Virus record (IMG/VR): IMGVR_UViG_3300020192_000058
Span: 1 to 30,874 of that record
DNA: 30,874 nt
Direction: 5' to 3' (one strand)
DNA from: a virus
The notes beneath the pieces were generated by a model. It was given only the letters and a program-made list of their open reading frames with translations. It searched no databases and had not been told where the DNA came from. Positions 8,567 to 30,156 of the stretch are shown here, piece after piece. How positions within the stretch are numbered: the stretch's first letter is position 1; the number at the start of each line of letters is the position of its first letter. The position numbers were made by a program, and so were the translations under genes.

Positions 8567-8577
8567 AAGTGACACTT

Positions 8578-10072: not shown

Positions 10073-10681
10073 ATGCAACAAGATAGCGACACTTTGACGC
10101 CTCATGACGTAAGGAAATTGCAACGAAAGATGCAACAAGGCATCCCGTTGACCGCGGAGGAGAGTGAGGCGGTTGCAGCAACTGCCGGCAAGCCGACCCT
10201 GTTTGCGCAAAACCAAACCGAACTTGCCGCTGCGCTCGGAGTATCACGGAGGTCGATACTGGTATGGTCCAAGCAAGGGGCGCCGAGGCCCAGGCCGAAC
10301 GGCCACTACGAAATAGCCGCGTGGCAAAAGTGGGTGCGTGACAACGGGAGGAATGAAAAGGCGACGTCGGCACGTTCCGGCAAGGGAGGTGGGATCGCCC
10401 AAACCAAACTCAAGGCGACGGCCCGGAAACTACAGCTCCAAAACGAAAAGCTTGAAGCGGAGATTGGCATCCTGAAGCGCGACTACCTGAAGCGCGATGA
10501 GGTCGAGACCGAGATTGCGCAACTGATCGTTGGGGCTCGCACCGTTGGCGAGCAGATGCCGGCGGCGCTTGCACCGCAACTTGCCGGGCTCGACATCCCG
10601 CAGATCGAGATCCGGCTTCGGCAGTGGTGGGATGAATACTGCGAGAAGCTGCACCGAGGGGCGGCGGTGGACGACGTATGA
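10073..10681 (+). CDS. Terminase small subunit (Nu1-like)
   Basis: This 202-residue DNA-packaging protein would recognise phage DNA and recruit the large terminase subunit. Residues 45-80 form a winged helix-turn-helix of the Nu1/MerR type (TELAAALGVSRRSILVWS, with the wing GHYEIAAWQKWV). A Gly/Lys-rich linker follows, then a coiled coil (KLQLQNEKLEAEIGILKRDY). The C-terminal segment has the pattern LAGLDIPQIEIRLRQWWDE, expected to contact the large subunit. An upstream TTG at 9998 would lengthen the protein, but the ATG at 10073 begins nearer the conserved part. There is no Shine-Dalgarno sequence. The stop overlaps the large terminase start (ATGA), supporting the pairing. Confidence 0.88.
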   Translation: MQQDSDTLTPHDVRKLQRKMQQGIPLTAEESEAVAATAGKPTLFAQNQTELAAALGVSRRSILVWSKQGAPRPRPNGHYEIAAWQKWVRDNGRNEKATSARSGKGGGIAQTKLKATARKLQLQNEKLEAEIGILKRDYLKRDEVETEIAQLIVGARTVGEQMPAALAPQLAGLDIPQIEIRLRQWWDEYCEKLHRGAAVDDV

Positions 10682-12501: not shown

Positions 12502-12507
12502 TCTGGT

Positions 12508-12533
12508 AAGCGGACAAGGCCGGTCATGGTAGG
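12508..12533 (+). promoter_or_regulatory. AAGCGGACA junction motif, copy 1
   Basis: AAGCGGACA (12508-12516), then 12 bases, then GTAGG directly before the ATG at 12534. The same arrangement recurs at 15228, 18669 and 28433. It sits in the gap between the large terminase and the gpW-like gene. It could be a phage-specific promoter or a translation signal; the spacing does not fit a sigma-70 promoter. Confidence 0.4.
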
Positions 12534-12806
12534 ATGACCGTCCAGGGAATATACGTTGGAATTGAAGAGCCTCAGCTCGTCGGAATGCGAGCTGATGTCC
12601 TTGCGCAGCTCACGCTTGCAAGGCAGGGCAAGAGGCTGAACGCGCTTTCAGGCGGAGGAAAATCGTTTGGCAAGCAGCTCATGAGCGTCGATGAATTGAA
12701 CCGCGAGTTGCTGGAGATCCGGCACGCACTGAAGAAGGCGAATCCAACGGTGCACGGACGGACGGTCCGCAGACTACACGCCGACTTTAGCCGCAACCTG
12801 CTGTAA
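12534..12806 (+). CDS. gpW-like head-tail connector protein
   Basis: This 90-residue protein lies exactly where lambda W lies, between the large terminase and the portal. Its middle and end follow the gpW pattern: ADVLAQLTLARQGKR (helix, then Gly-Lys-Arg hairpin), a short loop with GGGK, then SVDELNRELLEIRHALKK (second helix). gpW-type proteins sit under the portal after packaging, retain the DNA and prepare the neck for the tail. The first 18 residues are an extension not seen in lambda gpW, which is about 68 residues. Assignment rests on position and helix pattern. The ATG follows copy 1 of the AAGCGGACA motif. Confidence 0.72.
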   Translation: MTVQGIYVGIEEPQLVGMRADVLAQLTLARQGKRLNALSGGGKSFGKQLMSVDELNRELLEIRHALKKANPTVHGRTVRRLHADFSRNLL

Positions 12807-12809
12807 CCC

Positions 12810-14381
12810 ATGGCATCATTTATCGACCGCGCCCGCAAGGCACTCGCCAACGCAATCACGCCCGAAGTGTTGGAGCGGGAGGAGAACCGAGCCAAGGCAG
12901 CCGGCATCAAGCCGAACGAGTTTAACCGTGCCGTATCTACGGCTTTCAACTTTTACGAGGGCATCAAAGTCTCGAGGGAGCGGACGAGGATTCATACGAC
13001 GCTGTCGGATACGGACCAAACCAACTCCGCATTCGTCCGGCGCGAGCATGCCGGCATTGCGCGACACCTCTACGCCAACGACGGCATGACTCGTGGGTTG
13101 ATCAACGACATCAGCCGCTACACGGTTGGCTGCGGGATGAAGCCGCAGGGCACGAGCAGAAGTCAGGACTGGAACGATGCTGCTGAGGATTATTGGGAGG
13201 AGTGGGGCTACCGGGCCGACTACAACCGGCGCAACCATTTCGGCCGGCTTCAGTTTCTTTGGCAGGTGGGAGAGATCCGAGATGGCGACATCGGGATTGC
13301 GCTGGTCCGAGATGAGCAGGGCGGCCCCCAGGTGCAGAGCATTCGAGGCCACCGCATCGGCAATTTTGGGGAAGATACCGTTGGGCTGAAGGATGGCGTG
13401 CGACTGGATGGCAGCGACCGGCCGATGTCGTATCGGGTGCGGACGACAGCCGACCCGAAGAACGGAGACCCCGGCTTCCGTGAGATCCCGTCAAACTCGT
13501 TCATTCTCTTTTGCGAGCCACAGGAGACGGACGCGGATCGTGGGCTGACTGCGCTACATCATGCGATCAACCATGTGCGTGACAAAAAGGATACGATCGG
13601 GTTCGAGAAGACCGCGATCAAGAATTTGTCGGCATTCACTGCGGTCCTGAAAACCAAGTCTGGCACGACCGATGCCGACGACTGGAATGAGGATGCTGCA
13701 ACATCAACGGATCCAACGAACATCACCCTTGCACAGATGCAGAGCGGGCAGATCCCGGTAATATCGACCGAGGAAGATTTGCAGGCGTTCAGGAGTGATC
13801 GTCCATCGCCGGCCTTCATGGGTTTTCTTGAGTTTCTGATTCGCGAGATCGCCGCAGGACTTGGGATACCGTATGAGTTTGCGTGGAATTCGGAGAAGAT
13901 CGGCGGCGCGGTGGTTCGGTTTGTATTGGAGAAAGCACAGCGACGCTTCGATGAACGGCAGAAACATTTCGCAACCAAGGTTTTGCAGCGGATTTGGGGG
14001 TACGTGATCGCGGACGCAATCGCACGCGGTCGACTGCCCGATGATCCGCGCAAGTTTATCGTTGAGTGGCAGCCACCGGCAGCGATCACGGTTGATGCGG
14101 GGCGCGATGGCAACAGCGACCGGCAGGACGTGCTGATGGGGCTGATGTCGGAGTCGGATCACTACGCAATGCGAGGGCTCGACCGGCGCCGGAAGCGGAA
14201 CCTGATCGAGAACGAGGCGGACGACCTGCTGCTGCGTGCCAAGCGACTTGTCGATTCGCACGGCATCACGCTTGAGATGGCAATCCAGCTTCTCCGTCAG
14301 ACCGCGAGCAACCAATTCACAACGGCGTTTTCTCAGCCGAGCGGGAACGCCGGCCAACTTCCGCCGCCATCATCGCCATGA
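12810..14381 (+). CDS. Phage portal protein, lambda family
   Basis: This 523-residue protein would form the dodecameric ring at one capsid vertex, through which DNA enters and leaves and to which the neck binds. Characteristic segments are RHLYANDGMTRGLINDI (about residues 86-102), SRYTVGCGMKPQG, RHFxRLQFLWQ-like NHFGRLQFLWQ, GDIGIALVRDE, and later LIREIAAGLGIPYEFAWN. All of these match the lambda gpB family. Length agrees with the family's usual 480-560 residues. The C-terminal 40 residues are Gln/Ser/Pro-rich and probably disordered. The start is four bases after the gpW-like stop, without a Shine-Dalgarno sequence. The end overlaps the protease gene by four bases. Confidence 0.95.
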   Translation: MASFIDRARKALANAITPEVLEREENRAKAAGIKPNEFNRAVSTAFNFYEGIKVSRERTRIHTTLSDTDQTNSAFVRREHAGIARHLYANDGMTRGLINDISRYTVGCGMKPQGTSRSQDWNDAAEDYWEEWGYRADYNRRNHFGRLQFLWQVGEIRDGDIGIALVRDEQGGPQVQSIRGHRIGNFGEDTVGLKDGVRLDGSDRPMSYRVRTTADPKNGDPGFREIPSNSFILFCEPQETDADRGLTALHHAINHVRDKKDTIGFEKTAIKNLSAFTAVLKTKSGTTDADDWNEDAATSTDPTNITLAQMQSGQIPVISTEEDLQAFRSDRPSPAFMGFLEFLIREIAAGLGIPYEFAWNSEKIGGAVVRFVLEKAQRRFDERQKHFATKVLQRIWGYVIADAIARGRLPDDPRKFIVEWQPPAAITVDAGRDGNSDRQDVLMGLMSESDHYAMRGLDRRRKRNLIENEADDLLLRAKRLVDSHGITLEMAIQLLRQTASNQFTTAFSQPSGNAGQLPPPSSP

Positions 14382-15229
14382 GCACCTTTCGATTCCTCCG
14401 TATTCGCGAGATCCTTGCCCAGCCGTGGCTCATTACGGCGGAGGGGTACGATGCCGTCGCCTCACTGGTTGATCGGCACGCAGCCATGACGACGGCCGAC
14501 TTCGCCGCCATGAAGATGGATGGCCTCTTCGATGTACCGCCTCAGATGGCCATCGACAAAGAGACCGGAATCGCGGACATCCCGATTCAAGGCGTGATCG
14601 GCAAGGGGCTTTCTAAGATCGAGAAATCATGCGGGGCCGTGGGGACGGAAGACATCACGAGCAATCTTGCTTTGGCAATGGCTGATCCTTCGGTCAAGGG
14701 CATCTTGCTGAACATCGCTTCCCCTGGCGGCACAGTCAATGGAACGCCCGAGGTGGCGTCAGCGATCCGCGAGGCGGCCGGTCGCAAGCCAATCGTCGCG
14801 TTTACGGATTCGCTGATGGGATCTGCTGCGTACTGGATGGGCTCGCAGGCCAGCATGGTGATCGCGTCCGAGTCCGCGAGCGTGGGTTCAATTGGAGTGT
14901 ATATCCCTGTGACGGATATGTCCAAGCGTGCCGAGATGGCCGGCGTCAAGGTGGATATAGTTAAAAACAAGGAAGGGACTTTCAAGGGTATGGGCTACGC
15001 TGGAACCACTCTTACCGAGGATCAACGCGGACACCTGCAAGAGCGGGTTGACGAAATCTTTGCCATGTTTGCGGGGGCCGTGCAATCGGCCCGCACCGTT
15101 CCGGCCAGCGCAATGCGCGGGCAATCCTTCCTCGGAGCCGAGGCACGCAAGCAGGGGCTGACTGACGACGTTGGAGGGCTCAACCTTGCACTCAGGAGCT
15201 TGATGGCACTCATGCCGCTTAAACGCTAA
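14378..15229 (+). CDS. S49 family head maturation protease (gpC-like)
   Basis: This 283-residue serine peptidase of the SppA/ClpP-fold S49 family would process the scaffold or portal during prohead maturation, as lambda gpC does. Visible signatures are LNIASPGGTV (residues 111-120), DSLMGSAAYWMGS with the likely nucleophile S149, SVGSIGVY (168-175), and GTFKGMG with K203 as the probable general base of the Ser-Lys dyad. The C-terminal part has the usual helical end with AEARKQGLTDDVGG. Unlike lambda C it does not carry a long scaffold extension. A separate coiled-coil gene follows 27 bases downstream and probably takes that role. The start overlaps the portal stop (ATGA). Confidence 0.93.
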   Translation: MSTFRFLRIREILAQPWLITAEGYDAVASLVDRHAAMTTADFAAMKMDGLFDVPPQMAIDKETGIADIPIQGVIGKGLSKIEKSCGAVGTEDITSNLALAMADPSVKGILLNIASPGGTVNGTPEVASAIREAAGRKPIVAFTDSLMGSAAYWMGSQASMVIASESASVGSIGVYIPVTDMSKRAEMAGVKVDIVKNKEGTFKGMGYAGTTLTEDQRGHLQERVDEIFAMFAGAVQSARTVPASAMRGQSFLGAEARKQGLTDDVGGLNLALRSLMALMPLKR

Positions 15230-15253
15230 GCGGACAAAGCCGGTACTTGTAGA
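15228..15253 (+). promoter_or_regulatory. AAGCGGACA junction motif, copy 2
   Basis: AAGCGGACA (15228-15236) overlaps the stop codon of the protease gene. Twelve bases later comes GTAGA, four bases short of the ATG at 15257. The intervening AAGCCGGT closely matches AGGCCGGT in copy 1, so copies 1 and 2 are the most similar pair. Confidence 0.4.
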
Positions 15254-15256
15254 ACT

Positions 15257-15685
15257 ATGACAATTCCCGAACAACTCGCACAGGCGCTTGTCGACCTTGC
15301 TGCATCCAATCAGGCACTTGCTGCGGAGCGGGTTGCCGTCACGACTTTTACCAGCCAGCTCGCCGAGCTGACTGCGAATAACAAAGCGCTTTCGGTCGAT
15401 CTCGAAACCGCCCGATCTTCTGTATCCGCTTTAGGCGGTCAGGTTGCATCGCTCGGCTCCGAGGTTGTTACGCTGAAAGCTGCGGCGAAGACCGCGACCG
15501 AGCAGGCTACCGAAATGGCCGCACGGATTGGCGTCTCGCCTGTAGCCGCTGCCAGCGGGACGGGCTCCGAAATCGCGGCCGACATGACGCTGGATGAAGT
15601 CCGCGCCGCACTCAGCAAGACGACCGACTCCCGCGAACGCGGGCGACTCACCATGCTTTCCCGCAAGATTCGCGGGCTCCAATAA
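15257..15685 (+). CDS. Coiled-coil scaffold candidate (142 aa)
   Basis: Residues 1-90 are a long Ala/Leu/Ser/Thr-rich coiled coil (EQLAQALVDLAASNQALAAE, LETARSSVSALGGQVASL). An Ala/Gly linker and a short basic C-terminal helix follow (ERGRLTMLSRKIRGL). A coiled-coil protein with a basic tail directly between the head protease and the major capsid protein is the expected profile of a scaffolding protein such as lambda Nu3, whose C-terminus binds capsid subunits. A decoration protein is less likely, given the absence of beta structure. Role inferred from context and composition. The ATG follows copy 2 of the AAGCGGACA motif. Confidence 0.72.
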   Translation: MTIPEQLAQALVDLAASNQALAAERVAVTTFTSQLAELTANNKALSVDLETARSSVSALGGQVASLGSEVVTLKAAAKTATEQATEMAARIGVSPVAAASGTGSEIAADMTLDEVRAALSKTTDSRERGRLTMLSRKIRGLQ

Positions 15686-15717
15686 CTCTTAGAAATTAAC
15701 TCAACTCCAGTCACTAC

Positions 15718-16911
15718 ATGCCTACTCTAGTTTCCTCTGAAATCCTGATGGATGTCCTTCAGGCGTTCAAAAATCAGATCCCTGCGATCAATCGCATGGG
15801 TACGGACTTCCGCGCTGACTCGCTCAAGCTGAACCAGACCTACACGGCGCACATCGCCGGCCTGCCAACGGTTGCAACCTACGATGCCTCGACTGGATAC
15901 GCGAACGGAGCGACTGCTGCACGTACGCTCCTGACGGACCTGCCGATCACGGTCAACCAGCACAAGCACGTTCCGCTCAAGTGGACGCATCTCGACAATA
16001 TCAAGGACCAGAAGTCCAGATATAACGAGGTGGTGGCCAATGCTGGATACGTTCTGGCCAAGGCGCTGATCGATGACATCCTGTCCGGAGTAACGGAGGC
16101 GACCTTCTCTCAGGAGACGATTTACACCGTCGCCAACTCCGATCTCGACATGATCGTGGAAGTCAACGCGAACCTGAATAAGCGGAAGGCTCTGCCGACC
16201 GGCCGCGTAGGCATCGTGAATTCGGATGTGGCTACGACGATTGGTGCCGACACCCGCGTCATGTCCAAGGATTATTACGGCCAGATCCAAGGCGGCAATG
16301 GACTTCGCCGCTTCGCGAACATCGGCGGTTTCTCGGAAATCTTTGAGTATTCAGATTTCCCGACCAACGCACTCGACGCATTGACGGCGGTTACGGGCAC
16401 CGCCGCTACGGACTTGATCAACAAAACCGCGCACGGGCTTCTTGATGGTGAGGCGGTCGTATTCACTTCTGGCACGGGCTTTACGGGAATCGTCGCCGGC
16501 ACCCGCTACTTCGTCCGCGACGCTACTGCGAATACCTTCAAGCTCGCCGCGACCCGCGGAGGTGCAGCGATCGACATCACCGTTGATGGCAGCGTTGGCG
16601 TATTCACCGAATGCGCGATGACTGGTTTCTTTTTCGAGTCCAGGGCAATTTCCGTTCTTGCTGGCATCCCGGAAGATTTCAATGGCGCGATCGCCGCGCA
16701 GCTTGGCATCCCGCAGCTGATGGGATACGAGGCCGTCACCGATCCCGACACGGGCTTGACGATGGCTGCTGTGTCCTGGCAGGAGCTTGGCACCGGTAAC
16801 GTCTACTGGGCTCCCACGATCGTGTGGGGCAAGTCGATGGGCAAGCAGCTGGCCGCAACCGCTGCCGGCGGGCTGGTTGACTACGCCGGAAACCGTCTGC
16901 TCTCGACCTGA
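15718..16911 (+). CDS. Major capsid protein with inserted beta domain
   Basis: This 397-residue protein is placed between the scaffold candidate and the neck genes. Features fitting an HK97-type capsid subunit are an N-terminal helix (VLQAFKNQIPAINR), an extended-loop region (residues 55-100, ITVNQHKHVPLKWTHLD), helix LAKALIDDILSG, then RVGIVNSDVATTIGAD and a late FFFESRAISVLAGIPE. Residues about 216-303 look foreign to that fold. They follow the pattern TAHGLLDGEAVVF...GTRYFVRDATANTFKLAAT...GSVGVF, which I know from repeated beta domains in phage tail fibres and capsid decorations. It probably protrudes from the capsid surface. The exact capsid family is not assigned. Confidence 0.85.
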   Translation: MPTLVSSEILMDVLQAFKNQIPAINRMGTDFRADSLKLNQTYTAHIAGLPTVATYDASTGYANGATAARTLLTDLPITVNQHKHVPLKWTHLDNIKDQKSRYNEVVANAGYVLAKALIDDILSGVTEATFSQETIYTVANSDLDMIVEVNANLNKRKALPTGRVGIVNSDVATTIGADTRVMSKDYYGQIQGGNGLRRFANIGGFSEIFEYSDFPTNALDALTAVTGTAATDLINKTAHGLLDGEAVVFTSGTGFTGIVAGTRYFVRDATANTFKLAATRGGAAIDITVDGSVGVFTECAMTGFFFESRAISVLAGIPEDFNGAIAAQLGIPQLMGYEAVTDPDTGLTMAAVSWQELGTGNVYWAPTIVWGKSMGKQLAATAAGGLVDYAGNRLLST

Positions 16912-16916
16912 TTACG

Positions 16917-17132
16917 ATGTCGCTGCACGTTGTCATCGGCTTTGATGGGCCGTCTCAGACCGCAACTCCTTCCGTAGTGTACCTCGGTCGAGACGGAAGT
17001 GAGGCGGAGTCGGCCATCAAGGCGTCATCGGTGTTCCGATACGAGTCGTTTCGCAATCCGGCCGGAGTGCGCAAGCACAACCCGAATCACCGGGCGTCCG
17101 AACCGGCGCAGAAGCCGGCCGCGAAAAAGTAA
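16917..17132 (+). CDS. Small head-region protein (71 aa)
   Basis: The N-terminal part is a short beta-like segment (LHVVIGFDG, TPSVVYLGRDG). The end is basic and disordered (RKHNPNHRASEPAQKPAAKK). It occupies the position of lambda FI, a small accessory packaging or head protein, but no similarity to FI is visible. A strong intrinsic terminator follows at 17164-17191, so it may be the last gene of the high-expression head transcript. The start is five bases after the capsid stop, with no Shine-Dalgarno sequence. Confidence 0.65.
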   Translation: MSLHVVIGFDGPSQTATPSVVYLGRDGSEAESAIKASSVFRYESFRNPAGVRKHNPNHRASEPAQKPAAKK

Positions 17133-17163
17133 CTTGGGTTAGCTGTGTTCTTGGTTGTCTGTC

Positions 17164-17191
17164 GCCCCGCCCGAAACGGCGGGGCTTTTTT
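17164..17191 (+). terminator. Intrinsic (Rho-independent) terminator
   Basis: Perfect 8-base-pair GC-rich stem GCCCCGCC (17164-17171) / GGCGGGGC (17178-17185), loop CGAAAC, and six T bases (17186-17191). It points along the + strand and has no A-run on its left side, so it is unidirectional. It lies between the small head gene and the next head-tail gene, whose ATG is only five bases further on. Confidence 0.88.
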
Positions 17192-17196
17192 CTAAC

Positions 17197-17514
17197 ATGA
17201 CTTTTGAGGAAGAACTTGAATCGGGATTCGCGGAGCTTGCGGACATTGCCGGAGCGGCCGCAACGTTCGGCGACACTGCGCTGCAAGTCGTGGTGTCCGC
17301 GCCGACAGCAGCACAGCAGCAGGTTGACATTGCGATGGGCAGACCCTACGTGGTGAGAATTGAGGTTGCACGATCCACGCTGCCAACCATTCGCCCGAAG
17401 GTGGGCGAGGTTATCGACATAGGTGGAATCAAGCACGACATAGCGGACATCCTCAAGCACGACCCGACAGATCCGACCATCGTTTACATCTGCCGAACAA
17501 CCGGCAAGCCGTGA
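17197..17514 (+). CDS. Head-tail joining protein candidate (FII-like)
   Basis: This 105-residue protein lies in the lambda FII position. The N-terminal half is helical (EEELESGFAELADIAG). The second half is a small beta domain (RPYVVRIEVARST, PKVGEVIDIGGIKHDIADI) that ends with DPTDPTIVYICR. This 'G..i...g..y.v..v..dp..p....c' layout is common to phage head-tail attachment proteins. Length agrees with FII (about 117). The ATG at 17197 was preferred to a GTG at 17155, because the latter lies upstream of the terminator hairpin. Function is inferred from position and pattern. Confidence 0.65.
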   Translation: MTFEEELESGFAELADIAGAAATFGDTALQVVVSAPTAAQQQVDIAMGRPYVVRIEVARSTLPTIRPKVGEVIDIGGIKHDIADILKHDPTDPTIVYICRTTGKP

Positions 17515-18200
17515 TTGAAGTTACGATACAGGCCAAGCTCGCGGAGGTGAATCAGGCACTGAACGAGTACGTTGCGGCAGCCCGCAAGAGTCCGGACGAG
17601 GTGCTGGAGAAGAAGGGGCGGGATCTCGCCATCAAGGTTTTTCAAGGCTTCTGGGCGCAACGGTTGAAGGCCACGAAAGCACAGAGGAAAGCGCAAGCAG
17701 GATTCAGGGGTCCGGCGTTTGATGAGGCGAAGGCGCGAGGCTGGCGGGTCAAGATCCGGAGTGGGCTGAAGTTGAATGCCAATTACCGGCTTGCACGTGC
17801 GAAGACCAAGGGAGGCAGGACCAAGCGCAATGGACTCAGCGACTACGCACTACTGGTCGCGCAGGAGTTGTCTATGCGGCAACGTGGTGCCGGGTTGCTC
17901 GGAGTCTCATTCCTTCATCGCCGTTGGCGTAGAGGCACGCGTACATCTACAGGCAGGACAGGGCGATACTTGTCCCATAATGTATCCAAGAAGCTCGGCC
18001 TGCTGTCCGCTGTCGAGAAGGGACAGAACGGCGATTCTCACTTCCTGCGGATCACGAATAAAACTCCAGGCGTCGCAATCGTGGACGCCAATAAGCAAAT
18101 CATCGCGATTGCGCTTGAGCGTGTCCGAGCCGATACGCGGGTTTATTTGGAGCGTAAGGCGAAGGAAGCGGGCGACCGGGCACTAAAAACTCTTTCCTGA
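17511..18200 (+). CDS. Neck / tail-completion protein candidate (Z or HK97 gp10-like)
   Basis: This is a 229-residue basic protein. An N-terminal helical region (LAEVNQALNEYVAAAR) is followed by GRDLAIKVFQGFWAQRL, a very basic middle (RRWRRGTRTSTGRTGR) and a helical end (ERKAKEAGDRALKTLS). Position corresponds to lambda Z, which is needed to finish tails and insert DNA into the tail; proteins of the HK97 gp10 group sit in the same place. No specific motif secures the call. Start GTG overlaps the previous stop (GTGA). Confidence 0.6.
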   Translation: MIEVTIQAKLAEVNQALNEYVAAARKSPDEVLEKKGRDLAIKVFQGFWAQRLKATKAQRKAQAGFRGPAFDEAKARGWRVKIRSGLKLNANYRLARAKTKGGRTKRNGLSDYALLVAQELSMRQRGAGLLGVSFLHRRWRRGTRTSTGRTGRYLSHNVSKKLGLLSAVEKGQNGDSHFLRITNKTPGVAIVDANKQIIAIALERVRADTRVYLERKAKEAGDRALKTLS

Positions 18201-18202
18201 CC

Positions 18203-18652
18203 ATGACTATCCGAGAACTACGCGAGCAGATCCAAACCTACCTCTCGACAATCACGGCGCTGCCTGGTGTCGTCTGCCTGCTCGAGCGCGACGGAACAGA
18301 CCAGAGCGAAGCGGAGACGGAAGCGCTGCGAACCAAGGGGCTCTTGATCGTGGTGCAGAATCTTGTCGGCTCGCTTGGCAGCCGCTCTCAGGAGGGGCGA
18401 CTACTGAAGCTGGATCTCGCGGTTCCCATCGCGATCATCGAAAACCCGATTATCAACCTTGGAGTTGGAGGTACCGGTATCGTTGGAGAGGATGCGTTGG
18501 AGACAATTGCCCGCCACCTCATGGGCCGGGCTGGGCCGTTTGGAGCCATGGAGGTCAGCGGCGACTCATTCGGCCGCATCGATGAGGGCGACGGCGTGGT
18601 TGTGAATTACTTTGTTGTATCGGTTCCGTGGGTGATGAGGCCGAATTGGTAG
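18203..18652 (+). CDS. Tail terminator candidate (U-like)
   Basis: This 149-residue protein has an opening helix (TIRELREQIQTYLSTI), alternating beta strands (RTKGLLIVVQNLV, LLKLDLAVPIAIIENP), a helix (EDALETIARHLM) and a closing strand NYFVVSVPWVM. This strand-helix order, together with its place between the Z-like and tube-like genes, fits the tail terminator family (lambda gpU, minor tail protein U), which caps the tail tube and joins it to the head. Assignment is by position and secondary-structure impression. It starts two bases after the previous stop with no Shine-Dalgarno sequence. Confidence 0.62.
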   Translation: MTIRELREQIQTYLSTITALPGVVCLLERDGTDQSEAETEALRTKGLLIVVQNLVGSLGSRSQEGRLLKLDLAVPIAIIENPIINLGVGGTGIVGEDALETIARHLMGRAGPFGAMEVSGDSFGRIDEGDGVVVNYFVVSVPWVMRPNW

Positions 18653-18668
18653 CATCGGCGGGCCGTGG

Positions 18669-18693
18669 AAGCGGACAACGAGGCAAGGGTAGA
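18669..18693 (+). promoter_or_regulatory. AAGCGGACA junction motif, copy 3
   Basis: AAGCGGACA (18669-18677), 11 bases, then GTAGA (18689-18693), in the 61-base gap between the terminator-like and tube-like tail genes. Here the ATG (18714) is further away, 45 bases from the start of the motif rather than 26-29. This argues against a simple ribosome-binding role. Confidence 0.4.
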
Positions 18694-18713
18694 GCTTTAA
18701 CCTCCCTTGATCC

Positions 18714-19205
18714 ATGCCGCTGCCCACCTCTCCATTTGATACCGCCAAGTCCATCTATGCTGGACTTTCCATCATCTCCCTCAAGATCCCGGCCGGTGGT
18801 TCGGCAGTCATCTATGAGGCCCGAAAACTCGACCAGCCGACTGAGCAAAGCGAGAAGTCCATTGAGATGCCTGATGCGACCGGCGTTCTTCGCCGCGTGC
18901 GGACCGTGCTGACCAACCAGCAGGAATCGTTTATGTTCGAGCTGGTGGAACCGAAGCGGCTACTGACGATCTTCGGAAATTCGCTTTCCGGCCGCAAGAC
19001 TGGGACTTGTATTATCTACATTCCAGACCCGAACGACGCAGCCGGAAAGGTTGCGCTCACGAGTGAAACGGACATCCCGGTCACGGTCACGCGCGACGGA
19101 GGACTCACGTTCGGCGATGCTGATTTCACGAAAGCCACGATCAAGATTGAGTCCAACAAGCTCGGAGCGATCACGTGGACCGCTGACGCCAGTGTTCCTG
19201 CCTGA
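18714..19205 (+). CDS. Major tail tube protein candidate (V-like)
   Basis: This 163-residue protein lies directly before the tail chaperone and tape-measure genes, where siphophages encode the tube subunit. It reads as a beta sandwich: FDTAKSIYAGLSIISLKIP, AVIYEARKLDQP, RRVRTVLTNQQESFMFELVEP, IIYIPDP, TDIPVTVTRDGGLTF, ATIKIESNKLGAITWTAD. It lacks the C-terminal Ig domain of lambda gpV, which accounts for its shorter length. Hundreds of copies would polymerise around the tape measure. The family is not proven, but position makes this the best tube candidate. Confidence 0.7.
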   Translation: MPLPTSPFDTAKSIYAGLSIISLKIPAGGSAVIYEARKLDQPTEQSEKSIEMPDATGVLRRVRTVLTNQQESFMFELVEPKRLLTIFGNSLSGRKTGTCIIYIPDPNDAAGKVALTSETDIPVTVTRDGGLTFGDADFTKATIKIESNKLGAITWTADASVPA

Positions 19206-19618
19206 TGATCTCACCAGCTACGACGCTTGAGGTTACGCTGATCGACGGGACGACCAAGGAACTCGTCGAGCTCAAGCGGCTTTCGCTTCGGCAACTGTAT
19301 CAGTTTGTTGAAGTCCTGAGTGCAAAGGAAACGATCGACGCCATCGTGCTTGCGACCGGCAAGACGGTGGAATGGGTGGAGACCATGAGCGACGAAAGCT
19401 ACGGGCTGCTTGCAGAGGCGGTGCACAGTGCAAATTTTCCGAGAGCCATGGCGCTCATCAAGAAAGATCCCGCCATGGCCATCGGCCTCGCACCGTACAT
19501 CGGAAGAATGCTCAAGGCAGATGGCATGGTTGGCGGCGCAAGGTCGCAGCCCTTGCCCTCAGCGGAGTCTGCGGAGGCGAATGTGAGCGTATCCTCGACC
19601 TCCCGCACGACTGGATAA
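19205..19618 (+). CDS. Tail assembly chaperone (gpG-like)
   Basis: This 137-residue helical protein is encoded between the tube and tape-measure genes, the position of lambda G. It contains DGTTKELVELKRLSLRQLYQF, a charged helical middle and, to about residue 105, IKKDPAMAIGLAPYIGRML. The remaining tail is low-complexity (PSAESAEANVSVSSTS) and looks unlike a folded end. In the -1 frame the DNA instead continues sensibly to 19755 (see next entry). Chaperones of this type coat the tape measure during tail assembly and are absent from the virion. Start and previous stop overlap as TGATG. Confidence 0.8.
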   Translation: MISPATTLEVTLIDGTTKELVELKRLSLRQLYQFVEVLSAKETIDAIVLATGKTVEWVETMSDESYGLLAEAVHSANFPRAMALIKKDPAMAIGLAPYIGRMLKADGMVGGARSQPLPSAESAEANVSVSSTSRTTG

Positions 19619-19755
19619 ATTTCCTTTACGCAGAGATTGGCCGGCGCAACGCGAGCCGGGACTTGGCGATGATGGCTGTCGTCAGTCGAGCAATGTCGGG
19701 AGGAGACGAATACGGAAAGCTTTCTGCAACGCTGGCAAACAGCGCAAACTCTTAG
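19205..19755 (+). CDS. Tail chaperone G-T fusion by -1 frameshift
   Basis: Lambda and many siphophages make a second chaperone, gpGT, by a -1 ribosomal slip near the end of G. Here the -1 frame is open from before 19372 to a stop at 19753-19755. From about 19540 it encodes a plausible helical domain (VAALALSGVCGGE, DLPHDWINFLYAEIGRR, MMAVVSRAMSGG) that has no start codon of its own. It ends three bases before the tape-measure ATG. Protein-level plausibility places the crossover at roughly 19520-19560, yet I find no in-phase X XXY YYZ heptamer there. The only textbook heptamer in phase is AAATTTT at 19432-19438, which would cut into the conserved part of G. The fusion is inferred; the slip site is unresolved. 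Confidence 0.65.
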
Positions 19756-19758
19756 ACC

Positions 19759-21387: not shown

Positions 21388-21390
21388 CCC

Positions 21391-23142
21391 ATGCCCTTCG
21401 TATTCAAAGCAGCCGCAGGGAGCATCCCGGATTCTTACGCTATTGTCATTCCTCCCGACTGGTCTGATCCAGTCCGGCTGACGTATTCACTTTCCAGCGA
21501 ACAGGCTGAAGGATTGACCGGCATTGAGTATCGAGTGCCGGGACATCGCTACCTGCGAGTGAAGCAGCAGTACGCGGCGAGCATGGAGGAGGCGGACGCG
21601 GCCTCGATGAGGGAAGCACTGTACTCGATGGGCGACGGTACGCGCGTTGCAGTTCCGCTCTGGCCCGATGTGTACGCTTCGTCGTGGATGCACGTCGGCC
21701 AGTATACTTTCTCCTACTCTGCGGCCGGTGCAGTGGCTTACATCGCAGGGTCAACCGGACCTTTTACTTACGCATATAATGGGCCGATGCTTTTTGGTCG
21801 GCTTGTGAATCGGCCAACGATCAGCCCGATTGGCGGGGCTCTTTGGCTCGTGGAAATTGAAGTGGAGGAGGATGCGCCGGACTTACTGCGCATCGAGCCA
21901 GCGGCCGGAGCCACGCCGTCGACCTTCGAGTGGGCGCCGGATTGGTCGAACGCGATCGAGGATGTATCACGCGACCAGATGCGGCCGGCCATGCTTGGAC
22001 AAGGACGTGAGGTGGGTATGTCGGGTACAAACGGTTTTCCACGATGGGGCCAGCAAGCAGGCTTTACTTTCGATCAAAACGAGGCTGCTCGGTTGCTGCG
22101 ATTCTGGGTAGGCAAGCGCGGTTCGTGCGACTCATTCACGTCCGATGCATGGGGGCAACCAGGCACGCCGACCAGCACGACGCCGGCAACATACACCTGT
22201 CGGTTCGATTCCGATACACTGTCACTTTCCTTCATCACGCCGGAAGTGATCGAGACGACCATTACGCTCTGGCAGGAAGCACCCGCGGTCACGCAGTCGG
22301 GCAGCGGTCGCACGATGCTGGCCGCGTTCACATGGGAGGGCGGCACGACTACGCGGCTCACTTCGTGGGAGCACACGCTCACCTACTCTGGGGATGACTA
22401 CGCGCCGTCGAGGATCGAAAAGGCGCAGCTCAGAAAGACGATGTCGCCGCTTGGCGATGAGTGCGATATTGAGATCTGGTCAGAGGAGCCGGGAAACCCG
22501 ATGCTCCCGCTTCTCGCGGGCGAGGCTGAACGCAAGCTCACCGTCACGATTGGAGAGGCAATCATCAATTCATCGGGAGTCGTTACGGCCTATGCGGAGA
22601 CCTTCACTGGCACGATCCGATCGGTTGAGTTGAAGGGGGATACGCTGGTCGGCCGTGCGGCTGCATTCGGCGCTATCTTCGAGCGAAAGCTTCCCTCTTT
22701 TTTCATTCAGCAGGGGTGCAACTACGTTTTGTTTTCGGCGCCGTGCGGGCTTTCTTCGGCATCGTGGACAAAGACCGGGCCGATCGGTGGCACGCTTCCG
22801 AATACGACGGTGACTTTTACCCCGTCATCCGCGCCAACCGGAGCGTACAAAGACAAGTGGTTCGCTGGCGGGTGGCTGACGGTGACTGGAACGGACTCGT
22901 CGGAGAACCGCCGGGCCGTGCTTGATTGCTCCGAGGCTGCTGGAGTCTGGACTCTTAAACTCAATCGGCAACTTCCAGCAACCTGTAGCGGGCAAAGCGC
23001 TACGGTTTACCCTGGGTGCGATGGGAACTACACGACATGTAAGGACAAGTTCAGCAATGGGCTTCAATTTGGCGGGCATCCGTACACGCCGAGTTTCATT
23101 GCGACCTCAAGCGGCAACGGTACGAGCAACAAAGCAAAATGA
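21391..23142 (+). CDS. Distal tail protein with gpL-type iron-sulfur cysteines
   Basis: This 583-residue protein fills the place of lambda M and L. The N-terminal half carries beta-rich sequence with LTYSLSSEQAEGLTGIEYRV and VPLWPDVYASSWM. The C-terminal half matches the DUF2163/BR0599 type: TGTIRSVELKGDTLVGRAA, then QQGCNYVLFSAPCG and PGCDGNYTTCKDKF, GLQFGGHPY. C443-x8-C452 and C543-x6-C550 repeat the cysteine spacings of lambda gpL (x8 and x6), which bind a [4Fe-4S] cluster. It should form the ring at the tail tip to which the gpJ-like protein attaches. Its length suggests an M-L-like fusion or a DUF2163-type two-domain protein. It starts three bases after the tape-measure stop. Confidence 0.87.
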   Translation: MPFVFKAAAGSIPDSYAIVIPPDWSDPVRLTYSLSSEQAEGLTGIEYRVPGHRYLRVKQQYAASMEEADAASMREALYSMGDGTRVAVPLWPDVYASSWMHVGQYTFSYSAAGAVAYIAGSTGPFTYAYNGPMLFGRLVNRPTISPIGGALWLVEIEVEEDAPDLLRIEPAAGATPSTFEWAPDWSNAIEDVSRDQMRPAMLGQGREVGMSGTNGFPRWGQQAGFTFDQNEAARLLRFWVGKRGSCDSFTSDAWGQPGTPTSTTPATYTCRFDSDTLSLSFITPEVIETTITLWQEAPAVTQSGSGRTMLAAFTWEGGTTTRLTSWEHTLTYSGDDYAPSRIEKAQLRKTMSPLGDECDIEIWSEEPGNPMLPLLAGEAERKLTVTIGEAIINSSGVVTAYAETFTGTIRSVELKGDTLVGRAAAFGAIFERKLPSFFIQQGCNYVLFSAPCGLSSASWTKTGPIGGTLPNTTVTFTPSSAPTGAYKDKWFAGGWLTVTGTDSSENRRAVLDCSEAAGVWTLKLNRQLPATCSGQSATVYPGCDGNYTTCKDKFSNGLQFGGHPYTPSFIATSSGNGTSNKAK

Positions 23143-23618
23143 TTCCATACTACTCGACGCCCGAACGCATTGCCGTACTCGATTCTCAAGTACGGCTCTG
23201 GATGGGTACGCCGTTCCGTGCTGGTTCCGCAGTGTCAGGCCCATTCGGTGGCGTCGATTGCGTGGGATTGCAGGCCGCAATCCACACGGCGACGGGGGCA
23301 ACGCAGGCAATCGAGATCCCGCGCAAGCCGCTGGACTGGCACCTGCACCACGACAATTCCGCGATCCTCGACTTTTTCAATGCGCCTGAAATTCGATCAA
23401 GGCTGCGGCGGGTGGAGTCGTATGAGGGATACCATCACGGCGACCTGATGGCGGTGCGCGTAGGGCTATGCGAGCACCACCTAGGGACATGGATTGATGA
23501 CTCACGCGGCAAGCATCTCTTCCATGTTCCGATTGGGGCCACTGTACAACGCTGGCCGATTGGATCACCTCCGCTGGCTGGCAAGATTGCATCGGCTTGG
23601 AGGATCATGCAGCCATGA
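23139..23618 (+). CDS. NlpC/P60 tail-tip peptidase (K-like)
   Basis: This 159-residue protein has the NlpC/P60 layout. GTPFRAGS precedes GGVDCVGL with catalytic C41, and GDLMAVRVG leads to CEHHLGTWID with H113. A downstream HLFHVP supplies the possible third polar residue. Lambda gpK has the same domain, in part, and helps tail-tip assembly; in other phages such domains cleave peptidoglycan during entry. There is no N-terminal JAB/MPN domain, which lambda gpK possesses, so it is the minimal form. Both ends overlap the flanking tail genes by four bases (ATGA). No gpI-like gene separates it from the tail-tip gene. Confidence 0.87.
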   Translation: MIPYYSTPERIAVLDSQVRLWMGTPFRAGSAVSGPFGGVDCVGLQAAIHTATGATQAIEIPRKPLDWHLHHDNSAILDFFNAPEIRSRLRRVESYEGYHHGDLMAVRVGLCEHHLGTWIDDSRGKHLFHVPIGATVQRWPIGSPPLAGKIASAWRIMQP

Positions 23619-26600
23619 GTTTCGCAAACAAAGTAGAATCGCCAGCGCTGAATCCGACCACGCCAGATCGGCGCAACACGTACAGGGAGGCGGAGTCTCT
23701 GCCATTCGGGAATGGATACATGCGGCTGGCACCGAAGTGGATCACGGACCGATTCAACGATCACTGGTCAAACGGAAAGACGACCGGGCAGGCGTACTGT
23801 TCGGTGGCAGGAGTGCTCTGTCATGGCCCGATCCAGCACATTCGTGCGATCTACGTTGGCGGCGAAGGCGTAGGAGTCTTTGATGTTTCGCGACCGACGA
23901 ACCCAGCTGATCCGGATTACTACTATACGACGATTGAGTTTGGAGGCGCTGATGCCGACCTTGGGGTGTCGAATAGAATGCGGTTCTACTGGGGCGACGA
24001 GGCACAGCCAGTGGACTCCTGGCTTGTGTCCACGACCGGACAGGATCATCCACCATACAAGGGGCAAACGCTGGTAATCTTTGAACGGCTCCACTGCGGG
24101 CAGGTGCAGGCAAACAGTCAGGCGCAGCCTTCCCTGCCGAATATCGAGTTTACGGTTTATCGCCTTCCATCGCCATCGATGCCTGCGGGGCTCAGGTTCC
24201 CCGCTGCGCTGCCTGGCGGAACGGCACAGTTTCGAGGGGTTAATATCGTATCGGGAATTTGGGACTTCCTTACGCACGCGCGCGGAGGTCTTGGACTGAC
24301 AAGCGCGACGCTGGACCAAGCAGACTGGACGTCGAATGCCAGCAACATCGAGACGGGTGCCAAGCCAGCAGCAGGGCTTTATGGCGAGGAGGCGTACCTT
24401 TCTCCGCTGCTCACTGGCCAGCAGGATGCCGGCAAAGTCGTTCAGGATGCGCTCGAGTACATCGACGGATGGACCTACACTGAGGCAGGAAAGATCCGCA
24501 TGGGATGGTTTCCAAACGACGGGACGATTCCGTCGCCGTTGCCGGAAATCTCCGAAGCGGACCACGTTGAGGCGCCATCGATCCGGACGGATTCGCTCTC
24601 GGAATCGCCATCCACGATCGTGGTGGAATTACTTGAGGGCGACAGTGGAGAGCTGGATTTGATCGATGCGATCGAAACCGCCCGGGTGCCTTTCATCCGC
24701 GAGATCGTAGGCACTTCGCCGGCCAAGAAATTGCAGCGGCCGTGGATCACCTCCCGTGACATTGGGGCGAGGTATGCGACGAGGGCGGCAGGGCTCGCAA
24801 CCATCCCAGCCAAGAGCGGGGAATCGGTAGTGCGGCTCGATGCGGCCGTGCGGCTCGACGGAACTCCTCTGCGGATTGGCGACATCTTCGAGATGAACTA
24901 CGCCCCCATGGGGGAGCTTGTGATTGCGCGGCTGGTTGAGCGGCTCGAAGATGAGACTACGGCGACGCTCCGATGGGAGCGTGAGCGCGGAACATCGTCG
25001 GTGCCATACGCGCCCGCGAGCGACGCTCGCGACAACTACGCGCTGCCTGATCCGCCAACGCCGGGCACGGGCGACTGGGCGATACTTGAGGCACCATCCG
25101 GACTGTCCGAGGTGGCAGCGGCGGTGATCCTCGCGCATCGACCAAGCGACGCTCTGGCCGGAATGCGTGCGTATCTGGATCTAGATGACAACTGGGCGAC
25201 CGGCTCAACGCTTCTAGGCTTTCAGAGTTTCGCCGCCAAGGTCACGCTCGACGCGACAATCAACAGCAGCGTGGTGACGTGCGTACTTAACGGCACGGGC
25301 GTCGATGTCTCGCCCTTTCTTGGCAGCGGGTTTACGACGGTGGAACAGGATGACGACACGATGGTTCTGGTGATCGGAACCGAGTGGTTGTCTATCGGCA
25401 CAATATCCTCCGCGGGCGTAGGCTCGTACAATGCGGGAATCAAGCGCGGGCGTTTGAGTTCAACGGCGGCGGGGCACACTGCGGCGGATGTGGGATGGTT
25501 GATCCGACGCGACCGGCTGACGCTCTGGACCAGCACAACATTCACCTCGCTATCGGATCGGTTCTTCAAGGTTGGATACTACCACGCCAAGGCGGATGGG
25601 ACGTTGTCGGCATCGAAGCAAGTTACATTTGAGAACCGTGCTCCGAACCCGCCGACCAGCTTTGCGGCAACGTCGCTTCCGGGAGCGGTCAAACTTTCGT
25701 GGGTGGTTCCGACTGGCATCAATCTGTTCGGGTACCAGATTTACCAACACACGGCGAATACTTTGCCGGGATCGCCAAGCTACTTCGTCGCGCACGCAGG
25801 CAACACGTTTACGGCAACTGGGCTGACTGCTGCTGTTCCGTATTACTTTTGGATTGTGGCGCTGACAGACACAATCGGAGTGAGCTCGACAGTCGGCAGC
25901 GTCACGGCGACGCCGACAAGCGCATCGTCGGGGACCGACGCATACACGATAACCCAGACGATGCCGGCGCCGCAGGTACGATGCGATTCGGCAGGTACAC
26001 CGATTGCGGGCGAGCTGACAACTCCAAGGGTCCAGACCACGTTTTCAGTGATGAAGGGTATTACGGCTTTAACTGGCGTGACTGGAACTCCCGGCTCTGG
26101 ACAATTTCGCGTGCTGGCCAATGGCGCGGCGGTCAACTCAACGGCGACGTTCTCAACGGCTTACATCGAGTTGGATACTGTGTCATCAGATTCCGGGTAC
26201 GTGCCATATAAAGTTGAGCTTGAAGGTACGGCTGTATTCGTCGTGGGTCAATGGCACTGGGTGAAGACTCTGGCTGGAGCAACCGGAACGGGAGGCTCAA
26301 GCGTCGCGCAGGTGCTGCTATATCGGAGATCTGTTTCGTCTCCCACGCTTCCGAGCACGACGGCAACCTACACTTTTGCCACTGGTGTTTTGACCGGGCA
26401 TAATAACTCATGGACGCAGGCGATCCCTGCGGTTGATGGGAATCCTCTGTGGGTAACTGCGGCAAGCGCCAGCGCATCGACTGCTACGGATACAATCGCA
26501 AGCGGCGAGTGGGCTGCTACGGTTAAGATTTTAGAGGATGGAGCGGCGGGAGCCAACGGGCTGAACGTGGCCACAGCATGGCTATTTCAGCGGGCCGCAT

Positions 26601-28279
26601 CGCCGCCAGCGGTGCCAGCATCGACACTGACTTTTACGTTCTCAACAGGGGGTTTGTCGGGCACGCTCGGGAGTTGGACTCAGGCTGTCCCGGGTGGCAG
26701 TAATCCGCTTTACGTTACGACTGCAACGGCATCGGCTACGTCTGCCACGGATACGATTGCAACCGGAGAGTGGGCGACGCCTCAGATCCACGCGCAGAAC
26801 GGGGCCGATGGTTCCAACGGCACGAATGGAACCAACGGGGCTGGTTACGTGGGCACATCAACCACCTCGCTCGCAATCGGAACCGGCTCCAAGTCTTTCA
26901 CCACTCAGACCGGGCTTGCCTACGTTGTCGGCCAACCGGCGCGACTGATCTATACGTCGGATACCGCGCAATTCATGGAGGGTCCGATCACGGCATACAA
27001 CTCCGGAACCGGGGCCATGACAATCAACAGCGTGCTGTACGCTGGCACCGGAACGTACGCAACGTGGACGCTGGCAGTGATAGGCCAGAGCGGAGTGGGT
27101 GCGGTTAATGGAGGCGTCTATGTTTCGGGAGGTACCTATTACGCCAACACGGTAACTACCAGTATCGTTTATGTTGGTACGACGCCATACCGAGCAGTCA
27201 ACCCAGCGAAGAACGGGCTGACGACGTGGGGCACGCCGGGATCTTCATCCGATTGGGTGGCGGCTGACGCGAGCTTCAAGTTCTTGGCGGCCGGGATTGC
27301 GTTGATCGATAACGCTACGATCAACAAAACGCTCATCATGGGAGATGGCGCAACGGCAGATGCAGGCATCATCCGCTCGGCGGGAGCAACAGCGTTTGGA
27401 ACCGGTGCCGGCTACTGGCTCAACCCAAGGTCAAGCGGGCATAGCAATAGTTCTGTGTTTCGCGTGGGCAACCCGGCCGGATACAATATCTCATACGACG
27501 GGACGAATCTGATCGTGAATCCCTACCGGATGATAGTCGGCGACTCGACGGGCACCGATGACACCGTCGGATTCCTTCAGGTCGATGGGAATTTCTCTGC
27601 CCGCAAATTCGGATCGGGAGCTCAGAACGTGGGGCTGACCTGCACAGTTGCACAGGGAACCATTGCCAGCCCATCGGCCACGGCGTCAGGATCGTTTGCA
27701 GCGCTGCGGCTTCGTGGATACAACGGAAGTTCCTACGGCACAGCATCATCGATTCGGCTGAAGGCAGCGGCTACTTGGACCGCCGGTGCCGCACCGTCAG
27801 AGGTTGAACTCATTGTCGTGAATCTCGCCGGCAGCGGGTCGAACTATCTATACTATTCATCCGAGGGTAAGCTCGAGTTTGGCGGCACCACGGCCACCCG
27901 CGACAATGCGAACCTGTACCGGGGCGCAACGAATACGATGAAGTGTGACGGCACTTTCGAGGCAGGCTCATTCAAAACCGCCTACCTTGAGGCCGGAGTA
28001 TCAAGCGCGGTGGACGTGAAGGATGTGAACTTGAGAGTGTACTCGGGCGGAACACAGAACGCGCGCATTGACTACACCAATGGATATTACTACGTCCAGG
28101 GAACGAAAGTTCTTGGAGCGCGGGCGACTGGGTGGACCACGACTCCGACGGGCACTCTCACGCGGACTACGTTCGCAACCCCAACCGTTACGCTGGAGCA
28201 ACTGGCCGAGCGTGTGGCCGCACTTATCAACGATGTCCACGCGGTCGGCACGGGAACACATGGAATAATTGGATCATGA
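23615..28279 (+). CDS. Tail-tip / host specificity protein (gpJ-like), 1554 aa
   Basis: This is the largest gene in the window and encodes the central tip and receptor-contacting fibre. The first 600 residues hold the gpJ/tail-hub module (AYCSVAGVLCHGPIQHI, GLTSATLDQADW, later YATRAAGLATIPAKSG). A fibronectin type III domain lies around residues 678-770 (GAVKLSWVVPTGINLFGYQI). Two related modules follow at about 895-980 and 983-1065, each ending in ATDTIASGEWA or ATDTIATGEWA. Next are a short collagen-like GADGSNGTNGTNG and a tail-fibre domain with TSLAIGTGSKSFTTQTG. A long beta-rich shaft ends in VTLEQLAERVAALINDV. The ATG at 23615, overlapping the peptidase stop, was chosen over a TTG six codons upstream. 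Confidence 0.9.
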   Translation: MSFANKVESPALNPTTPDRRNTYREAESLPFGNGYMRLAPKWITDRFNDHWSNGKTTGQAYCSVAGVLCHGPIQHIRAIYVGGEGVGVFDVSRPTNPADPDYYYTTIEFGGADADLGVSNRMRFYWGDEAQPVDSWLVSTTGQDHPPYKGQTLVIFERLHCGQVQANSQAQPSLPNIEFTVYRLPSPSMPAGLRFPAALPGGTAQFRGVNIVSGIWDFLTHARGGLGLTSATLDQADWTSNASNIETGAKPAAGLYGEEAYLSPLLTGQQDAGKVVQDALEYIDGWTYTEAGKIRMGWFPNDGTIPSPLPEISEADHVEAPSIRTDSLSESPSTIVVELLEGDSGELDLIDAIETARVPFIREIVGTSPAKKLQRPWITSRDIGARYATRAAGLATIPAKSGESVVRLDAAVRLDGTPLRIGDIFEMNYAPMGELVIARLVERLEDETTATLRWERERGTSSVPYAPASDARDNYALPDPPTPGTGDWAILEAPSGLSEVAAAVILAHRPSDALAGMRAYLDLDDNWATGSTLLGFQSFAAKVTLDATINSSVVTCVLNGTGVDVSPFLGSGFTTVEQDDDTMVLVIGTEWLSIGTISSAGVGSYNAGIKRGRLSSTAAGHTAADVGWLIRRDRLTLWTSTTFTSLSDRFFKVGYYHAKADGTLSASKQVTFENRAPNPPTSFAATSLPGAVKLSWVVPTGINLFGYQIYQHTANTLPGSPSYFVAHAGNTFTATGLTAAVPYYFWIVALTDTIGVSSTVGSVTATPTSASSGTDAYTITQTMPAPQVRCDSAGTPIAGELTTPRVQTTFSVMKGITALTGVTGTPGSGQFRVLANGAAVNSTATFSTAYIELDTVSSDSGYVPYKVELEGTAVFVVGQWHWVKTLAGATGTGGSSVAQVLLYRRSVSSPTLPSTTATYTFATGVLTGHNNSWTQAIPAVDGNPLWVTAASASASTATDTIASGEWAATVKILEDGAAGANGLNVATAWLFQRAASPPAVPASTLTFTFSTGGLSGTLGSWTQAVPGGSNPLYVTTATASATSATDTIATGEWATPQIHAQNGADGSNGTNGTNGAGYVGTSTTSLAIGTGSKSFTTQTGLAYVVGQPARLIYTSDTAQFMEGPITAYNSGTGAMTINSVLYAGTGTYATWTLAVIGQSGVGAVNGGVYVSGGTYYANTVTTSIVYVGTTPYRAVNPAKNGLTTWGTPGSSSDWVAADASFKFLAAGIALIDNATINKTLIMGDGATADAGIIRSAGATAFGTGAGYWLNPRSSGHSNSSVFRVGNPAGYNISYDGTNLIVNPYRMIVGDSTGTDDTVGFLQVDGNFSARKFGSGAQNVGLTCTVAQGTIASPSATASGSFAALRLRGYNGSSYGTASSIRLKAAATWTAGAAPSEVELIVVNLAGSGSNYLYYSSEGKLEFGGTTATRDNANLYRGATNTMKCDGTFEAGSFKTAYLEAGVSSAVDVKDVNLRVYSGGTQNARIDYTNGYYYVQGTKVLGARATGWTTTPTGTLTRTTFATPTVTLEQLAERVAALINDVHAVGTGTHGIIGS

Positions 28280-28434
28280 TCACAACCGAATACATAACGC
28301 AGAAGCTCGCCGAGGCGGAGGCCAACGGCAAAAACGCCAGAAACGCCGCAATACATTGGGAGGCGCGGGCCGAGCAGTTGCGCGAGCTGATCGCTGAGGC
28401 AGATCGACCGGCCGACCAGAAGCCAGGCGCATAA
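28276..28434 (+). CDS. Small coiled-coil protein after the tail-tip gene (52 aa)
   Basis: A short, almost entirely helical peptide (TQKLAEAEANGKNARNAA, then ARAEQLRELIAEAD) with a polar end. It could be a chaperone or small structural partner of the tail-tip protein; no family recognised. The ATG overlaps the preceding stop (ATGA), which is why it is preferred to a longer reading with an upstream start inside the tail gene. Its TAA overlaps copy 4 of the AAGCGGACA motif. Confidence 0.65.
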   Translation: MITTEYITQKLAEAEANGKNARNAAIHWEARAEQLRELIAEADRPADQKPGA

Positions 28435-28458
28435 GCGGACATCCCGCGTAATAATAGG
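28433..28458 (+). promoter_or_regulatory. AAGCGGACA junction motif, copy 4
   Basis: AAGCGGACA (28433-28441), then 12 bases, then ATAGG immediately before the ATG at 28459. The distance to the ATG (26 bases) is the same as in copy 1, although the 12-base spacer is different. It begins within the preceding stop codon, as copy 2 does. Confidence 0.4.
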
Positions 28459-28827: not shown

Positions 28828-28839
28828 TCCGAAAGCACC

Positions 28840-29256: not shown

Positions 29257-29272
29257 ACGTTTTTTGGCCGCC

Positions 29273-30154: not shown

Positions 30155-30156
30155 CC

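Follow-up and report, generated by a model that had tools for sequence, protein, structure and literature searches.

What kind of signal is the two-block motif that recurs at four gene junctions in the late region of the virus record IMGVR_UViG_3300020192_000058? The record was analysed over its full 30,874 bases (hereafter the window), and the motif consists of AAGCGGACA followed at a short distance by TAGR. An earlier note on this DNA had proposed either that an unusual or phage-specific sigma factor uses it as a promoter, or that it is a translation or processing element in place of Shine-Dalgarno signals. The promoter branch is the better supported, given the fixed spacing of the blocks, the floating position of the ATG, the bias in strand and towards late genes, the absence of sigma70-type sites at the copies and the conservation of position with changes of letters, although it falls short of proof. 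We put at roughly one half the probability that each copy serves a Verrucomicrobiota phage as a late promoter with a geometry other than that of sigma70, yielding leaderless or near-leaderless mRNA and read by a phage factor.

Our recount agreed with the earlier note. AAGCGGACA was found on the plus strand at 12508, 15228, 18669 and 28433, and had no copy on the minus strand. The second blocks were GTAGG, GTAGA, GTAGA and ATAGG after spacers of 12, 12, 11 and 12 bases, respectively, and the four copies had only AAGCGGACA and TAGR in common. Two copies end at an ATG and two overlap a stop codon, as described. Copy 1 (12508..12533) directly adjoins the ATG at 12534. Copy 2 (15228..15253) overlaps the TAA of the S49 protease gene (15227-15229) and is followed after 3 bases by the ATG at 15257. 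Copy 3 (18669..18693) lies 20 bases before the ATG at 18714, and copy 4 (28433..28458) overlaps a TAA at 28432-28434 and directly adjoins the ATG at 28459. The second block is thus separated from the ATG by 0, 3, 20 and 0 bases in copies 1-4. Neighbouring genes commonly overlap by 4 bases, and the four motif junctions, 32, 27, 61 and 24 bases wide, belong with the larger gaps of this genome.

The pattern AAGCGGACA-N11/12-[AG]TAG[AG] occurred four times in the forward direction, always at a gene junction, with no occurrence in reverse or in a reversed control. Across 300 dinucleotide shuffles the 9-mer AAGCGGACA averaged 0.30 copies with a maximum of 2, and the two-block form never arose. The many further copies inside genes by which the earlier note would have been refuted did not appear: over the 14 scored positions, no other site with fewer than three mismatches was present on either strand of the whole window. 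Sites with exactly three mismatches numbered 11 on the plus and 2 on the minus strand.

The exact motif was present in three of the ten records reached via head and terminase relatives (L005, L006 and L007; L numbers denote collected loci). L005, which is 98-100% identical to the window over most genes, kept copies 2 and 3, copy 3 being identical. Copy 1 was also present in L006 and L007 (terminase 97-98% identical), where AAGCGGACAAGG and GTAGGATG were kept with changed spacer letters. The more distant L008 (terminase ~50% identical) had AAATTGACTAGGCCTGCCCTTGTAGCATG before the gene at the gpW position, equal in length to copy 1 and with TTGAC replacing CGGAC. At the position of the 142-amino-acid gene it had AAATTGACTGGAGCGGGGTTTGTATCATG, preceded by a perfect hairpin of the terminator type and its T run. 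Judged by sequence likeness, this distant phage has recognisable like elements at two of the four junctions, those of copies 1 and 2. Named phages gave no match to the DNA.

The two-block motif is a local version of a wider phage element with the core TTGAC. For the surveys, starts were defined as the first ATG of the longest open reading frames (ORFs) from our own crude caller, and upstream stretches judged near-identical by their last 30 bases were dropped. At 200 TAGNATG sites in 95 viral sequences, TTGAC lay 11-14 bases before the site in 8 cases, versus 8 over the other 32 spacers. Among 1028 called starts, TTGAC began 20-23 bases upstream of the ATG in 44 cases. A second peak, 34-37 bases before the ATG (24 cases), fits ordinary leaderless sigma70 promoters. 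The same 34-37 spacing was seen at 8 of 270 starts in chromosome pieces of the Verrucomicrobiota host Verrucomicrobium sp. BvORR106 (L159-L176), consistent with leaderless sigma70 transcripts in that host.

Samples were compared by counting TTGAC at -19 to -23. Near terminase relatives had it at 47 of 911 starts, with ~ 4 expected from a background of 0.74 per offset; this count is descriptive, as the range was set after the peak had been seen on largely the same loci, and it is inflated in some groups by a TTGAC shared by descent in the C-terminal coding stretch of the terminase. The corresponding values were 1/76 for distant terminase relatives, 0/192 for six named phages of other hosts, 11/444 for the host contigs collected for their terminase, 4/48 for the BvORR106 prophage and 4/293 for the BvORR106 chromosome. 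Two further host chromosome samples, at 1/139 and 2/131, were near background. The named-phage and host chromosome samples are separate data, except for the BvORR106 pieces, which had been examined earlier. By position, the element preceded 39 of 375 rightward genes after the terminase versus 18 of 535 other genes (Fisher p 2.2e-5), the latter comprising 15/328 rightward before it, 3/113 leftward before it and 0/94 leftward after it. These counts, together with the position bias, therefore identify a phage element that is mainly late. A host-wide start signal was rejected, as all three Verrucomicrobiota chromosome samples were near background. Whole-genome counts of TTGACA-N13..15-ATG exceeded a reversed-pattern control in 8/8 host genomes; because that control differs in base order, we preferred the offset counts. 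Searching each locus for recurrent words yielded little that was new outside the window and the prophage, most of the words being A/T.

Alignment of 56 sites gave GTTGAC[A/G] as the preferred box, with the preceding G in 32 of the 56. Eight loci (L061, L064, L065, L070, L071, L073, L078 and L081) shared the extension TTGACA-NN-GAATCTT, with 17, 20, 21, 22 or 33 bases from the box start to the ATG (32 in L079). TGGACA (L081) and GTGACA (L071) occurred in this same context, and we therefore link the CGGACA of the window to TTGACA. In the lambda-type prophage of BvORR106, box and ATG occurred together about a dozen times over 40 kb, and the 12 copies used were chosen by eye.

If the copies are late promoters, the left block (AAGCGGACA in the window, (G)TTGAC[A/G] in most relatives) would be the recognition box, and the right block, TAGR in the window, would mark the region of RNA start. 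Transcription from there would give the first gene of each late unit a leaderless or near-leaderless mRNA. Copy 1 would lead a unit of the gpW-position gene, portal and protease, and copy 2 a unit of the 142-amino-acid gene and the major head protein, up to a terminator at 17164-17185; copies 3 and 4 would stand at the head of the units at 18714 and 28459. The host RNA polymerase would work together with a factor from the phage, most likely the helix-turn-helix protein described below. The sequences show the motif, where it lies and how enriched it is, its bias to late genes and its conservation with drifting letters; promoter function, the location of the RNA start and the identity of the reading protein we infer. 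Because the spacing between box and second block is fixed and the distance to the ATG varies, a promoter or protein-binding site is favoured over a ribosome signal. A further point for a promoter is the gene at 15718 for the major head protein. High expression is expected of this gene, its 32-base leader lacks the element, and the 142-amino-acid gene ahead of it has one. A promoter is also favoured because terminators immediately precede the element at two places, at 14661 in L008 and in the BvORR106 prophage. More tentatively, Verrucomicrobiota phages may possess their own class of late promoters, with a TTGACA-like box ~ 17-22 bases before the RNA start, a helix-turn-helix factor, late mRNAs whose leaderless or near-leaderless form suits hosts poor in Shine-Dalgarno signals, and drifting letters (TTGACA, TGGACA, GCGGACA).

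Several observations weigh against the promoter interpretation or limit its reach. Conservation at the same junctions, which the earlier note had called for, held for copies 1 and 2 in L008 but not for the other two. Copy 3 was found only in the near-identical contig L005, and a search for further relatives returned the same contig. The copy 4 element was absent at the L185 homologue of the gene at 28459, the sole more distant relative of that gene (68% identical; a different phage type with differing neighbours). The start codon at 28459 is supported by the N-terminal sequence common to the window gene and the L185 homologue, and this comparison suggests an element tied to the phage rather than to the gene. 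L021 and L027, whose terminases (57 and 62% identical) are closer than that of L008, had no such element before called genes. In GC-rich relatives such as the BvORR106 prophage little is conserved beyond TTGACA, and many of the prophage copies lack an AT-rich stretch for strand opening. Other terminators, including the one at 17164 in the window, have no element after them. The helix-turn-helix protein was not found in the element-bearing L008, L032, L075 and L084, which are fragmentary loci. We must also note that the distance from box to ATG peaks at 19-23 bases, as a signal linked to the start codon would likewise produce.

The candidate factor for reading the box is most likely this conserved helix-turn-helix protein of 162 amino acids, encoded directly before the small terminase (9442..9930, plus strand), and it would bind the box. 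A profile built from the window protein and the L064 protein gathered 54 ORFs after three rounds (loci collected, redundancy kept). Homologues stood before the terminase in several relatives, and the members have a helix-turn-helix core in common. No Pfam family matched the window protein even at E 1, and phrog_13059, at 0.015, was its sole PHROG match; it accordingly shows no sequence membership in the Ltr, RinA or ArpU families, ArpU being a further late transcription regulator of Gram-positive phages. Among 29 members scanned, any single Pfam family matched at most 5 at 0.01; the BvORR106 member weakly matched both HTH_23 and sigma-70 region 4, at E 6e-4 and short of the curated cut-off. 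The predicted structure had a confident core, with a mean predicted local distance difference test score (pLDDT) of 77 and a predicted template modelling score (pTM) of 0.57, and the model matched no solved fold at E below 0.001. A search of the named phages with two helix-turn-helix proteins returned no match. In L008, L084, L075, L032 and L064, ParB-like and PAPS-reductase-like genes lie ahead of the small terminase, according to translations read by eye.

The rival that survives best is a translation element acting at the RNA level, which we nevertheless regard as unlikely. UUGACA or AAGCGGACA, lying in the leader ~ 20 bases before the AUG, would serve as the binding site for a protein of the ribosome or of the phage and would recruit ribosomes in a host making little use of Shine-Dalgarno signals, with a hairpin at the AUG adding control in some phages. 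The tight peak 19-23 bases before the ATG speaks for it, as does the scarcity of Shine-Dalgarno signals, whose 4-letter core was present at only 4 of the 32 window genes tested and at 8 of 270 BvORR106 chromosome starts (6.8 expected). Against it, counted from the first base of the six-base box, the ATG lies at 26, 42, 33 and 32 bases in copies 2 and 3, L071 and L079, with the distance from box to second block kept. The proposed replacement of Shine-Dalgarno signals agrees with the low count in the window, but the leader of the major head gene lacks the element, so it is no general substitute. Strong hairpins over the ATG (z < -2) were found at 4 of 12 BvORR106 prophage copies versus 0 of 27 other starts, which favours control at the RNA level, yet the rank test gave p 0.09. 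Taken over all loci the fold difference was likewise weak (9/68 box-bearing starts versus 90/1514 others, p 0.05). At copy 1, an inverted repeat (12518..12543, plus strand) includes the second block and the start codon, with a fold z of -1.66 in the window and -4.28 in L006; it is kept around the second block in L006 and L007 and is not seen at all window copies. A hairpin at the ATG as an essential part of the element was rejected, as only some phages have one. Several late start codons in L177 and L178 (BvORR106 contig C88) are enclosed by strong hairpins, as though read-through RNA were to be silenced; the S49 protease gene at 51048 is an example.

Regulator-binding sites other than promoters are a less probable explanation, in which a phage DNA-binding protein at late junctions would block or pace transcription in the manner of stoperators. 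Asymmetric repeats in one orientation, short junctions and the conserved helix-turn-helix protein nearby would all suit such sites. Coupling to start codons and the late bias are not expected of roadblocks, however, and the early region has no sites with fewer than three mismatches.

That the copies are ordinary promoters for the sigma70 of the host, with a degenerate -35 box, is very improbable. TTGACA is indeed the -35 hexamer, and the separate peak at -34 to -37 resembles normal leaderless sigma70 promoters. However, a box that starts only ~ 17-23 bases before most start codons is unfit for host sigma70. The CGGACA of the window differs from the hexamer in 2 of 6 letters and stands 12-13 bases from the TAG block, and not 16-18. 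None of the 7 sigma70-type sites in a scan of 11500-30874 coincided with a copy. The 56 aligned sites had no -10-like base signal 12 to 7 bases before the ATG and no TANNNT peak at -12, and host chromosomes were near background. Promoters for a single-subunit phage RNA polymerase of the T7 kind scarcely come into question: the box ~ 17-22 bases before the inferred start, a second block that reads TA and then a purine in several groups, and the drift of letters between phage groups would agree with them, but the spacer length varies and PF00940 was found in 0 of 18 genomes and records, a weak negative since control genomes were also silent and the records are fragments.

The genes around the copies form a rightward series on the plus strand. 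The small terminase subunit (10073..10681; phrog_57, likely start ATG 10073) and the GpA-type large terminase (TerL, 10678..12501) are followed, after copy 1, by a 90-amino-acid gene at the gpW position (ATG 12534; synteny with lambda gpW). A lambda-type portal (from 12810) and the S49 protease (from 14378) come next, then, after copy 2, the 142-amino-acid gene and the major head protein (15718-16911). Past the head genes and ahead of copy 3 lies the intrinsic terminator-like hairpin with a T run (17164..17185, plus strand). A tape-measure-like protein is encoded at 19759, after copy 3. That every copy precedes a structural gene is plausible, and shown by synteny only: the genes after copies 1 and 2 sit at the gpW position and between the protease and head genes, the gene at 18714 has no family match, and that at 28459 matches only phrog_1084 (function unknown). 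In a terminase profile search restricted to one genome per species, all 30 bacterial loci with TerL relatives came from Verrucomicrobiota by record title, which makes a host in this phylum likely; the assignment holds at the phylum level.

Further features of the window were observed. The longest ORF at 17155-17514 has a TTG start just before the terminator-like hairpin, and an ATG at ~ 17198, past the T run, is the likelier start. Residues ~ 225-295 of the major head protein match tail fibre families, and a 49-residue piece shares 62% identity with a tail protein of a Rhizobium phage; this is likely an inserted surface domain. Many AGGGTAA-like repeats in both orientations lie at 8570-8760, after the primase-polymerase gene, where they were seen upstream of 8624 and 8844, and are possibly origin iterons. 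The protein encoded at 29264-30154 has alanine-, threonine- and glycine-rich repeats, with GC up to 67% in that kilobase.

Little has been described about how Verrucomicrobiota phages express their genes. Titles and the beginnings of abstracts of open-licence papers on Verrucomicrobia promoters, leaderless genes and phage late promoters contained nothing on the element, and no paper on Akkermansia start sites was found in the open-licence literature. If the copies are promoters, late transcription here would have a geometry unlike that of sigma70, tied to leaderless translation and with a named candidate factor. The element helps to locate late operons and to correct start codons in uncultured Verrucomicrobiota phages.

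The T4, SPO1 and T7 types of late promoter provide precedents for many phage-specific promoters in a late region, with a sequence and geometry that differ from those of the element described here. Start-Associated Sequences (SAS) of mycobacteriophages contain a ribosome-binding site.

The passages of the cluster K mycobacteriophage paper that deal with SAS and extended SAS leave their function unknown (PMC3203893). They describe asymmetric repeats, short and mostly in one direction, that immediately precede the start of many genes, similar to our element, and an extended SAS inverted-repeat consensus that differs between subclusters (PMC3203893). However, SAS is there a single 13-base sequence, GGGATAGGAGCCC, directly before the start (PMC3203893); it is absent from the four window copies. 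Unlike SAS as outlined in those passages (PMC3203893), the element has a 6- to 9-base box ~ 20 bases upstream, a second block, no Shine-Dalgarno core and a late bias.

As portrayed in the relevant part of PMC13123087, the Ltr and RinA systems also use repeats as recognition targets, and in staphylococcal phages the small regulator gene of Ltr lies directly before the packaging genes, similar in position and size to 9442-9930 in the window. The same part describes one late promoter, with repeats at -107 to -42 of the start in phi13 and co-transcribed late genes (PMC13123087), whereas here several single-copy sites are spread along the late region near start codons. Leaderless bacterial TANNNT genes, in the portion of PMC3160421 that describes them, have their signal ~ 12 bases upstream; they share with our element a promoter-like signal at a fixed short distance from the start codon and a very short leader. 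In comparison with that description (PMC3160421), the signal here starts ~ 20 bases upstream and is TTGACA-like, with no TANNNT peak at -12.

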